NCBI GenBank assembly: GCA_002894665.1
Contig: NCRB01000050.1
Location: 1 to 34,933, forward strand
Reading direction: 5' to 3'
DNA length: 34,933 nucleotides
Source: Salinivenus iranica
Lineage (GTDB): Bacteria; Bacteroidota; Rhodothermia; Rhodothermales; Salinibacteraceae
Notes under the pieces: model-generated
What the model saw: only the letters and a program-made list of their open reading frames with translations
Told to the model about the DNA's origin: nothing
The model's database searches: none
Program-made: the position numbers and the translations under genes
In this document: positions 15,204 through 18,674 of the stretch, piece after piece
Position numbering within the stretch: position 1 is the stretch's first letter
Layout of the letters: every line of letters begins with the position of its first letter

Positions 15204-18200
15204 ATGTCTCCGTCCTCCCCCACGGCCGCGTCCCCCGAGGCTCCCTCGGCCGACGTGGCCCTCTTTGGCAAGGATCAAATGCCGCGCATTGTAGACGTCC
15301 ATCCCCTGATGGACGGGCCGTCGGACCAGCCGGCGCGGGTCCGACTCTACCAGCGGTCGGAAGATTTTTCGACGGTCATCGAGCACGAGGATTCCTTTTT
15401 CCCCTTCTTTTTCCTGTCGGACATCACGCTCCTGCGGGGCATGCGGGATCGGTTCCGGTTTCAGCGCCTGGACGGCGACAATTTCTTTCGTCACCTCGTC
15501 GCCTTCCGGACGTGGGACGACTACTGGGACGCGGTGCGCACCGTGGAACGCCGCACCGACAGCGACGAGGGCTGGCCCGATGAACTCTACCGGGTGGGCT
15601 CTCCCGTGCAGCAGTACCTCATGCAAACGGGCCGCACCTGCCTGCTCGACATGAGCCTCGACGACCTGCACCGCCTGCAGCTCGACATCGAGGTGTACAC
15701 CGAGGGCGGCTTTCCCAATGCCGAACGGCCCGAGGACAAAATCATCATCGTTGCCCTGTCCGACAACCGCGGCTGGGACCAGGTCCTGCACCTCCGCGAC
15801 GGCATCGACGAAGACACGCTGCTCCGGGAACTGGTCCACGTTCTGCGCGAGCGCGACCCGGACGTGATCGAGGGGCACAACGTGTTCTCCTTCGATTTAA
15901 CCTACATCCTCGATCGCTGCGACCTTCACGGCGTCGACTTTGCCATCGGGCGCGACGGGTCGACGCCGCGCACCTACGACTCCAGCATGCGGTTTGCCGA
16001 GCGCACGGTCGACTACCCCGCGGTCGACATTGCGGGGCGGCACGTCATCGACACCTACTTCCAGGTGATGTCGTTCGATGTCTTCAGCCGCGACCTGCCG
16101 GACTACAGCCTCAAAACGGCCGCCCGCTACTTTGGCCTCGCGCCCGAGGACCGGACCTACATCGAGGGCACCGACATCTCGCGGGCCTGGCGGGAGAACC
16201 GCGACACGCTGCTCGACTACGCGCTCGACGACGTGGTGGAGACGCGCCGCCTGGCGGGCCACCTGTCCGGCTCCACGTTCTACCTCGCGCAGATGCTGCC
16301 CATGACCTACGGCTCGTCGGCGCGGCGCGGCCCCGCGGCCAAAATCGAGAGCCTCTTCGTGCGCGAGTACCTCCGGAAACGCCACGCCCTTCCCCGCAGC
16401 GAGTGGGGCAGCCAGTCGATGGGCGGCTACACCGACATCTTCATCAGCGGCGTAATGGGCCCCATCGTCTACGCCGACGTGGAGAGCCTGTACCCCTCCA
16501 TCATGCTGAACTACGACGTGCAGCCGTCCGGCGACTCGCTGGACCTCTTCCCCCAACTCCTGGAGCGGCTCACGGACCTGCGCCTCGAGACGAAGCAGGA
16601 CATGAAGGAGGCGGAGGACGAGGAAATCCGCAGTGAGCTCGACGCGCGGCAGAGCTCGTACAAGGTGCTAATTAACTGTTTCGATCCCGAGACGGAGATC
16701 CTGACGGTTAAGGGTATCAAGTCCGTTGATGAGGTGGAAGTCGGAGATCACGTCTATTCGCTCAACCCGGACACAGGAGAGGTCGAGATAAAGCCCGTTA
16801 CGGCCACGCAAGCCCAGCACTACGAGGGGCCGATGGTCGAAATTAAAAACCGTCACACTGATTTTCTCGTCACCCCAAACCATCGGTTCCTAACTCAGAA
16901 ATTTACGTCTGGCGAATACACGGATCTGGAGTGGGAGACAGCGGATGACATGCTGGAGGATCGAATTCGGCGCCGTCTTCCGTCTCTCCAAGCCTTCCCC
17001 CCCGCAGAGAAAGTTCCCTCTTCGGTGTCTCTTTCTGCGGTGTGTGATCGACACGGCATTGAACACAAGACGGGACCGCGCGGAATTAAGGAGCTCCGCC
17101 AACAGGCACGCTGGCAACCGGAGCAATATGACTTAGAGGAGTGGCTTCGCATCCTTGCGTGGTTTGCCACGGAAGGAACGCTTTACAAAAGCAAGGCGCG
17201 GGAGTACGAGAGCGGACACGTCCGAGGCGTGTCATACCAGACGACCCTGTGTCAAAAAAATGAAGAGGGCCGAAGACAAATCGCCGAGTTGCTTGACCGC
17301 GTCGGACCCTCGTACAGCTCCGACCAAAACGGTCATTCCTTTTGCTCGAAAGTGCTGTATGAAGTTCTCGAGGCTGAGTGTGGACCAGACAGTTTTTCTA
17401 AGCACCTTCCCCCCTGGATTTTTCAGCTTGGATCCGATCAACTGAAGATTGTATTCGACACCCTAATGCGGGGCGACGGCAATGCGAGGGGAGATCGGTT
17501 CACAACCTCCAGCGACCAATTGGCAGAAGATTTCATTCGCCTCGCGATGCACATGGGGCGTAGAGCATTCCACATGCCGAATGATGGAAGCCATCGAATC
17601 CAAGTAAACAAGGTTCGAGGTCAGCGCCCGACGATTAAGCCGAAACATCGGCAACAGGTGGACTACTCGGGAATGATCTACTGCCTCACCGTTGCTGACA
17701 ACCACACGGTGCTCGCAGGACGCAATCGCAAGTTCAACTGGACGGGACAGAGCTTTTACGGCGTCCTCGGGTTCTCTCTGTCCGTCTTCAACGACTTCGC
17801 GGAGGCCGACCGCGTGGCGCGCACCGGGCAGGAGATCCTGCGCGACCTGATCGACGAAATCCGCGACCGCGGGGGAACTGTGATCGAGGTCGACACCGAC
17901 GGCGTGCTCTTCGTGCCGCCGGACGGGGTGCGGGGAGAACAGGCCGAGATCGACTTCACGGTCGGCCTCACGGAGGCCATGCCCGAGGGCATCCGCGTCG
18001 GGTTCGACGGGCGGTTCCAGAAGATGCTCTCGTACAAGAAGAAGAACTACGCCCTCCTCACCTACGACGACGAACTGAAGTTTAAGGGCTCCTCGCTCAT
18101 CTCCCGCTCCAATGAGCCGTTCGGGCGAGACTTTGTGCGCCGGGCCGTTCGGCGCCTCCTGGACCACGACGTCGACGGGCTGCACGAGCTCTACATGGAC

Positions 18201-18674
18201 ACCCGCACCAAAATCATCAACAGCGACTGGGAGAGCGTCGACAGCTTTGCCCGCACCGAGACGCTCAAGGACACCCTGGAGGACTACGAGGCCGACGTGG
18301 ACGAGGGCAACCGGCCCCGGGCCGCCACCTACGAGCTCGCCAAGCAGAAGCAGGAGCGGACCGGGAAGCCGGTGAAGAAGGGGGATCGCATCTCCTACTA
18401 CATCACCGGCGATAGTGCCAACGTAACGGCCTTCAAGCACTGCGCCCTCGCCGCCGACTGGGACCCGGACAATCCGGACGAAAACACAGCCTACTACCTG
18501 AAGCGCCTCAACGAGTTTGCGACGAAGTTCGAGCCGTTCTTTACTGAGGAAGACTTCCGGCTCGTCTTTTCGCCCGAGGACATCTTCGGCTTCTCGGCCG
18601 ACGGAATCGAAATCCAGACCGTTGAACACGAACCGGACGTCCCGACGGACGGACCGGACGAGGTCCCCTTTTAG
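15204..18674 (+). CDS. polB: Family B DNA polymerase precursor containing an intein
   Basis: The 1156-codon gene encodes a B-family DNA polymerase of about 798 aa once the 358-aa intein (codons 492-849) is removed. The proofreading exonuclease has Exo I Asp161-x-Glu163 ('LDIEVY'), Exo II Asn226...Asp231 ('HNVFSFDLTY') and Exo III Tyr339...Asp343 ('YALDD'). The polymerase has motif A 'DVESLYPSI' (Asp425), motif B 'KVLIN|SFYGVLG' split by the intein, and motif C 'VDTDGVLF' (Asp897 and Asp899 in precursor numbering). Overall it resembles archaeal PolB and E. coli Pol II. In bacteria such enzymes usually serve repair or bypass, not main replication; that role here is inference. It diverges from the ABC ATPase gene across 144 bases. 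The acidic C-terminus has no obvious clamp-binding motif. Confidence 0.96.
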   Translation: MSPSSPTAASPEAPSADVALFGKDQMPRIVDVHPLMDGPSDQPARVRLYQRSEDFSTVIEHEDSFFPFFFLSDITLLRGMRDRFRFQRLDGDNFFRHLVAFRTWDDYWDAVRTVERRTDSDEGWPDELYRVGSPVQQYLMQTGRTCLLDMSLDDLHRLQLDIEVYTEGGFPNAERPEDKIIIVALSDNRGWDQVLHLRDGIDEDTLLRELVHVLRERDPDVIEGHNVFSFDLTYILDRCDLHGVDFAIGRDGSTPRTYDSSMRFAERTVDYPAVDIAGRHVIDTYFQVMSFDVFSRDLPDYSLKTAARYFGLAPEDRTYIEGTDISRAWRENRDTLLDYALDDVVETRRLAGHLSGSTFYLAQMLPMTYGSSARRGPAAKIESLFVREYLRKRHALPRSEWGSQSMGGYTDIFISGVMGPIVYADVESLYPSIMLNYDVQPSGDSLDLFPQLLERLTDLRLETKQDMKEAEDEEIRSELDARQSSYKVLINCFDPETEILTVKGIKSVDEVEVGDHVYSLNPDTGEVEIKPVTATQAQHYEGPMVEIKNRHTDFLVTPNHRFLTQKFTSGEYTDLEWETADDMLEDRIRRRLPSLQAFPPAEKVPSSVSLSAVCDRHGIEHKTGPRGIKELRQQARWQPEQYDLEEWLRILAWFATEGTLYKSKAREYESGHVRGVSYQTTLCQKNEEGRRQIAELLDRVGPSYSSDQNGHSFCSKVLYEVLEAECGPDSFSKHLPPWIFQLGSDQLKIVFDTLMRGDGNARGDRFTTSSDQLAEDFIRLAMHMGRRAFHMPNDGSHRIQVNKVRGQRPTIKPKHRQQVDYSGMIYCLTVADNHTVLAGRNRKFNWTGQSFYGVLGFSLSVFNDFAEADRVARTGQEILRDLIDEIRDRGGTVIEVDTDGVLFVPPDGVRGEQAEIDFTVGLTEAMPEGIRVGFDGRFQKMLSYKKKNYALLTYDDELKFKGSSLISRSNEPFGRDFVRRAVRRLLDHDVDGLHELYMDTRTKIINSDWESVDSFARTETLKDTLEDYEADVDEGNRPRAATYELAKQKQERTGKPVKKGDRISYYITGDSANVTAFKHCALAADWDPDNPDENTAYYLKRLNEFATKFEPFFTEEDFRLVFSPEDIFGFSADGIEIQTVEHEPDVPTDGPDEVPF
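16677..17750 (+). mobile_element. PolB intein with LAGLIDADG homing endonuclease
   Basis: This 358-residue in-frame intein lies between Asn and Ser of polymerase motif B (KVLIN|SFYG), a classic PolB insertion site. Block A starts at Cys1 ('CFDPETEILTVKG'). Block B has Thr66-x-x-His69 ('TPNHRF'). Block F is 'IYCLTVADNHTVLAG'. The C-terminus is non-canonical, Gly-Gln ('NWTGQ') instead of His-Asn, with Ser as +1 nucleophile. A LAGLIDADG-type endonuclease is present: motif 1 'LRILAWFATEG' (Glu166) and motif 2 'LKIVFDTLMRGDG' (Asp267), both with the catalytic acid kept. Three sampled 60-base lines give 94/180 GC (52%), against 45/60 in a sampled extein line, which points to acquisition from another genome. 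Confidence 0.93.

Follow-up and report, generated by a model that had tools for sequence, protein, structure and literature searches.

A LAGLIDADG intein with a Gly-Gln C-terminus at motif B of a bacterial family B DNA polymerase

The polB locus and its intein

The window analyzed here, the whole 34,933-nucleotide stretch of contig NCRB01000050.1 from Salinivenus iranica, contains at positions 15204-18674 of the forward strand one open frame for a 1156-aa family B DNA polymerase (PolB), with exonuclease and polymerase domains identified from the translation and from Pfam matches on the whole protein (DNA_pol_B_exo1, 2.6e-15; DNA_pol_B, 9.3e-23). The N-extein (15204-16676, +), assigned from Pfam and translation, comprises the exonuclease domain, motif A and motif B as far as KVLIN, and is followed by an intein of 358 aa (16677-17750, +; PolB residues 492-849), running from Cys1 to Gly-Gln and splitting motif B at KVLIN|SFYG. 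The C-extein (17751-18674, +), delimited by translation and alignment to empty alleles, begins with Ser+1 (SFYG) and carries motif C (VDTDG) and the stop codon. Both intein junctions are fixed, because intein-free alleles of the same genus read KVLINSFYG uninterrupted, and motif B is restored exactly as in the 16 empty alleles of the family. The intein also matches the Intein_Nterm model TIGR01445 with 31.3 bits, above the cut-off of 24.5, and has a clear fold match (PI-PkoII, see below). It is real and well delimited, and the coordinates and motif B position given in an earlier note on this DNA proved exact, as did its extein length of 798 aa (1156 aa minus 358 aa). An alternative C-terminal junction, e.g., at Asn354, was rejected, since +1 would then be Trp and motif B would be left unrestored.

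The splicing and endonuclease motifs can be followed along the intein, all on the forward strand. The N-terminal nucleophile Cys1 (block A, 16677-16679) and the Thr66 and His69 of block B (TPNH, intein residues 66-69, 16872-16883) are invariant in the 19 aligned motif-B inteins. A homing endonuclease domain, whose limits are approximate and derived from the mini-intein comparison and the fold match, occupies residues 105-318 (16989-17630), which is about the part absent from the 188-189-aa mini-inteins. According to sequence and alignment, it holds LAGLIDADG motif 1 (RILAWFATEGTLY, 17148-17186), with the acid Glu166 at 17172-17174, and motif 2 (around FDTLMRGDGNA, 17448-17486), with the acid Asp267 at 17475-17477. 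Cys1, the block B Thr-x-x-His and both acids had been listed as kept in the earlier note, and in the alignment Cys1, TPNH, Glu166 and Asp267 are indeed invariant among full-length relatives. Block F (IYCLTVADNHTVLAG, 17676-17720) contains Cys336, Asp341 and His343 (17703-17705); its Asp and His are invariant in 19/19 aligned sequences, and Cys336 in the six full-length bacterial inteins. Block G (FNWTGQ, 17733-17750), supported by homologues, ends with the penultimate Gly357 and the terminal Gln358, whose codon CAG (17748-17750) directly precedes that of Ser+1 (17751-17753), in agreement with the Gly-Gln|Ser junction first read from the sequence.

The GC content of the intein is 54.4% (GC3 0.61) and that of the extein 64.2% (GC3 0.88), so the previously noted contrast (about 52% against about 75%) is real, but the gap is smaller and the value of 75% was too high. 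A further intein is present elsewhere in the same genome (G000), in an RtcB-like tRNA ligase (YDIN|CLSGDS ... VVSN|CGVRL; L122:854-3838, G000:C54:18000-22000).

An AlphaFold model built from the 19 aligned motif-B inteins reached a mean pLDDT of 90.4 for the intein. Its top fold match is PI-PkoII, the second intein of the Thermococcus kodakarensis (KOD) polymerase (PDB 2CW7), with Z 28.4 and rmsd 4.0 over 337 residues, followed by TliVMA, PhoVMA, PI-SceI (Z about 21) and PI-PfuI (Z 21.6). A sequence-profile search also placed PI-PkoII first (E 5.6e-23), which makes it the best relative in both sequence and fold; it is, however, longer (537 aa versus 358 aa) and shares 20% identity over the structural alignment. 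PI-PkoII, too, interrupts motif B between N and S. Three fixed positions of PolB inteins have been described in the Mimivirus intein paper (PMC549080).

Classification and probable splicing with a Gly-Gln end

The features that define class 1 inteins are largely present: an in-frame insertion whose removal restores the host protein, a position-1 nucleophile together with a block B TxxH, and a terminal Asn or Gln (Gln358) followed by Cys, Ser or Thr (Ser+1). The usual, though not universal, penultimate His is replaced by Gly357. About 5% of functional inteins have a residue other than His at this position (PMC4031507), and Gly357 therefore does not exclude class 1 membership. Two LAGLIDADG motifs with their catalytic acids and a matching fold mark a homing endonuclease intein, and the N|S insertion and the clustering with same-site inteins assign it to the pol-b (PolB motif B) allele group. 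A class 3 mechanism was rejected on account of the invariant Cys1 and the lack of Trp after the His of block B (TPNHR); a block F Cys such as Cys336 is common to class 3 inteins, yet it is insufficient for that class, which needs a Trp-Cys-Thr triplet in blocks B, F and G and no position-1 nucleophile. We consider it very likely that the element is a full-length LAGLIDADG homing intein at the pol-b site, splicing by the class 1 route with cyclization of Gln358 and the help of His343, and homing with flanking extein. It is mostly of a known kind, and PolB inteins of Salinibacter, taken as a genus, are on record.

In the most likely class 1 route, Cys1 would form the N-terminal thioester, aided by Thr66 and His69, and the N-extein would be accepted by Ser+1. 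The intein would then be released through cyclization of Gln358, with block F His343 filling a role in which a penultimate His usually takes part, and an O-to-N shift would give the 798-aa polymerase. We infer precursor splicing, Gln cyclization helped by His343 and cutting by the nuclease. The earlier view that the assisting His is missing holds for the penultimate position, but block F His343 is present and invariant. Because it is invariant throughout the 19-sequence alignment and the penultimate position is occupied by Gly, His343 probably assists the third step alone, standing in for the missing penultimate His. Gln cyclization, also expected in the earlier note, is in line with other Gln-ended inteins (PMC4031507), which splice in this manner (PMC4031507, PMC8175363). 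Among them are the Pol II inteins of Pyrococcus abyssi (Pab), P. horikoshii (Pho) and Methanoculleus marisnigri (Mma) and the CIV RNR intein, which resemble the present one in a terminal Gln thought to cyclize with the block F His; in Pho Pol II this His is 3.4 A from the terminal Gln (PMC8229266). The Pab and Pho Pol II inteins differ in their penultimate His (PMC8175363), where Gly is found here, and also in their host protein. The intein is most likely functional. Purifying selection acts on both parts in the comparison of G000 with G003 (dN/dS 0.076 in the splicing domain and 0.100 in the endonuclease), a measure that becomes unreliable for distant pairs owing to high synonymous divergence.

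The Gly-Gln end had been taken for an oddity of this intein, which it is not: Gly-Gln|Ser is fixed in all ten motif-B inteins of the bacterial family, and the viral PolB motif-B inteins mostly end in Gly-Gln too, with Gly-Asn in L086 and L087. Gly-Gln is a lineage trait and not a peculiarity of one copy. Sequencing error or recent decay as its source was rejected, as the same end is seen in 10 genomes and also in viruses. Six of the ten bacterial inteins have 357-358 aa, one has 363 aa, one of 270 aa has mostly lost its endonuclease, and two are minis of 188 and 189 aa; the family includes a degraded form (G002), an endonuclease-deleted one (G017) and the minis (G020 and G026). Since full-length, endonuclease-deleted and mini forms all keep Gly-Gln, splicing with this end seems to have been retained after endonuclease loss, and its persistence in minis that would no longer be able to home alone is the strongest indirect indication of adequate splicing with such ends. 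In a wider group of inteins, a distant member in a sugar-nucleotide epimerase of the cyanobacterium Hydrocoleum (L044:4642-5637) has Gly-Gln before Cys, and several phage inteins of this wider group, which includes L044, end in Gly-Asn.

The same end could instead mean poor or conditional splicing (e.g., dependent on salt, temperature or redox), in which case Gly-Gln would act as a brake that regulates how much polymerase is made. Slow splicing is reported for the Gln-ended Pol II inteins of Pab and Mma, and a Gln to Asn exchange in Pab Pol II made C-terminal cleavage 20-fold faster (PMC4031507), while within the present lineage Gly-Gln is conserved with no reversion to His-Asn. This conservation may, however, be plain lineage history, splicing of the CIV RNR intein is better with a terminal Gln than with Asn (PMC4031507), and the Asn ends of the same-site viral relatives L086 and L087 indicate that both states are tolerated. 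We consider such a brake unlikely, and prefer class 1 splicing through Gln358 with the help of His343.

Distribution, mobility and viral relatives

The polymerase was scorable in 26 of the 27 family genomes searched, and the comparison for empty sites proposed in the earlier note gave 10 filled and 16 empty motif-B sites. Two same-genus genomes (G003 and G011) have the intein at 82-83% identity. No motif-B intein was detected outside the family in a scan of 114 genomes of the order, and among 395 genomes of the phylum the intein was found only in the same genus. On an extein tree from which 45 codons on either side of the site were left out, the presence pattern corresponds to about seven gains or losses, at least six of them forced by well-supported branches.

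The exteins of G000 and its sister G001 share 98.2% of their protein and 96.4% of their DNA sequence, but G001 has no motif-B intein and instead carries a 417-aa intein at ExoII (GHN|C, His-Asn end). DNA identity between the two is about 95-99% along the gene and drops to 0.87 at motif B and to 0.89-0.91 at ExoII. Extein differences number 27/270 and 19/270 at the two intein sites (46/540), versus 45/1974 elsewhere, a clustering that was reached in 0 of 20000 permutations and in 9 of 840 circular shifts. The divergence at both sites looks like what co-conversion during homing would leave, and change may have occurred in the flanks of G000 as well as in those of G001. The filled ExoII allele has Cys+1, as splicing needs, whereas empty alleles have Val, Ile, Ala or Leu. 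ExoII inteins of 416-417 aa, unrelated-looking and with a Thr-His-Asn end, were seen at L033 (G001:C26:15900-20000) and L034 (G017:C51:8400-13300), G017 having both inteins. Within the genus and G018, the Ser codon eight before the motif-B site is AGY in 5/5 filled and TCN in 9/9 empty alleles, a marker that was chosen post hoc. The endonuclease domain would cut intein-free polB alleles, to which the polymorphic distribution and the flanking divergence point indirectly, and the element would copy itself in with a stretch of flanking extein; it is very probably mobile.

Same-site inteins were also found on viral contigs, in the PolB of haloarchaeal tailed viruses, of several low-GC viruses and of one 484-kb phage. 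These viral motif-B inteins (L047-L050, L083-L094, L096, L104) share the insertion site, a TVADNHT block F, a Gly-Gln or Gly-Asn end and a single clade with the bacterial ones, from which they differ in their low identity (26-40%) and, for L088 and L094, in being inserted one residue later. The latter two, in halovirus-like PolBs of the same clade, have NS|CYG, Cys+1 and an Asn end, which suggests that the site of insertion can shift by a single codon. Downstream of its motif-B intein, the PolB of L083 (IMGVR_UViG_3300028382_000001) seems to be interrupted once more, by an intein at motif C (VTHGDS|VPADEPVLV...). The C-extein of L086 is 73.6% identical to the PolB of HSTV-2, whose length indicates that it has no intein at the site. 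Phage and plasmid records gave only distant relatives, the best (30.8%) being another PolB motif-B intein in an uncultured 484-kb phage. In an intein tree sampled from the bacterial family, viral PolB inteins and inteins of other host proteins, all sampled motif-B inteins group together, apart from those of other host proteins (93/82). Within this group the bacterial inteins are monophyletic (93/92; recovered in 90% of bootstrap trees), the halovirus PolB inteins make up a separate clade (98/96), and the nearest sampled neighbors of the bacterial clade are the viral L089 and L104, outside the halovirus group (91/97).

Two other histories of the element have to be weighed against these data. 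Under the first, the intein would be decaying, purely vertically inherited and no longer mobile in the genus, for which the degraded, endonuclease-deleted and mini forms of the family provide a decay series; it is nonetheless very improbable in view of the patchy distribution with its several changes, the empty site of the sister genome with flanks differing exactly there, the retention of both catalytic acids, and the G003 and G011 inteins, which are closer to each other (dS 0.028) than the exteins are (dS 0.115), as expected from recent conversion. Nor do vertically inherited inteins of matching GC, which the earlier note had set against its own reading, describe the data, as the distribution is patchy and GC3 differs. 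Under the second, which would put the earlier note's transfer between domains in the shared brine, the source would be a haloarchaeon or its virus directly. This idea has prior support, because a 2014 survey, in its passages on Salinibacter ruber, assigns the PolB inteins of this species (YP_003572085, YP_446104) to polB-a and polB-b and indicates that they fall inside clusters of Halobacteria (PMC4071816). The S. ruber inteins are comparable to ours in host protein and ecological group, and those passages do not discuss a Gly-Gln end (PMC4071816). Same-site inteins in haloarchaeal tailed viruses, such as that of the HSTV-2 relative L086, and an intein GC3 below that of the host gene point in the same direction. 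However, same-family inteins reach a GC3 of 0.82, which makes low GC3 alone weak evidence, and an identity of only 29-37% to the haloviral members means that any transfer is old. Because the bacterial and halovirus clades are separate and L089 and L104 are the nearest neighbors, the sampled set gives no support to a recent, direct origin from haloarchaea. Transfer between domains as such is possible, whereas a direct one seems doubtful, and an intein that moves by homing within the family remains our preferred reading.

Possible traces at intein-free sites

In intein-free alleles, third codon positions near the empty site are unusually AT-rich. When GC3 minima were scanned in 24-codon windows, corrected for amino acid and for the codon use of each gene, the gene-wide lowest window lay no more than 15 codons from the site in 8 of the family's 16 empty alleles (about 4% expected; p 1.5e-7 on the assumption of independence, which does not hold for these alleles) and in none of the 10 filled ones. 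In other families of the order it did so in 3 of 16 genes (p 0.03). For the empty alleles of the genus as a group, the minimum lies 6 codons before the site. The mean GC3 dip does not differ significantly between empty and filled alleles (p 0.16), and it is the test on the position of the minimum that stands out. Genomes with the lowest window at or beside an empty site are G001, G005, G006, G008, G009, G010, G012, G023, G031, G032 and G056. The empty alleles of G008, G009, G012 and G023 count as recoded, those of G004 and G007 as unrecoded.

The non-sisters G001 and G006 have almost the same unusual codons, and the tract itself may thus move by recombination. Comparable gradients beside yeast mitochondrial mobile introns have been ascribed to error-prone repair or co-conversion (PMC5378118). 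Escape of the target through synonymous change is a further, third option; single synonymous changes are reportedly tolerated by such nucleases (PMC3024317), so that several of them together would be needed. We tentatively suggest, as a reading somewhat less likely than not, that intein-free polB alleles in the order carry the footprint of repeated homing attack exactly at the pol-b site, in the form of a short run of unusual AT-ending synonymous codons that either were selected to block cleavage or remained after a break was repaired or an intein was lost. If true, the footprint would correspond, for inteins, to the diversity gradients around mobile introns.

The new parts of this work are the breadth of the Gly-Gln group, the sister pair with swapped sites and the empty-site footprint. 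Gly-Gln can be a stable, ancestral state of a large intein group across bacteria and viruses and not a rare defect, which makes this group well suited to testing how inteins splice when the penultimate His is missing. One bacterial family shows every stage of the homing cycle at one site, i.e., full, degraded, endonuclease-deleted, mini and empty. With the swapped intein sites of G000 and G001 and the recoded alleles at empty sites, both co-conversion and escape of the target site are open to direct tests.
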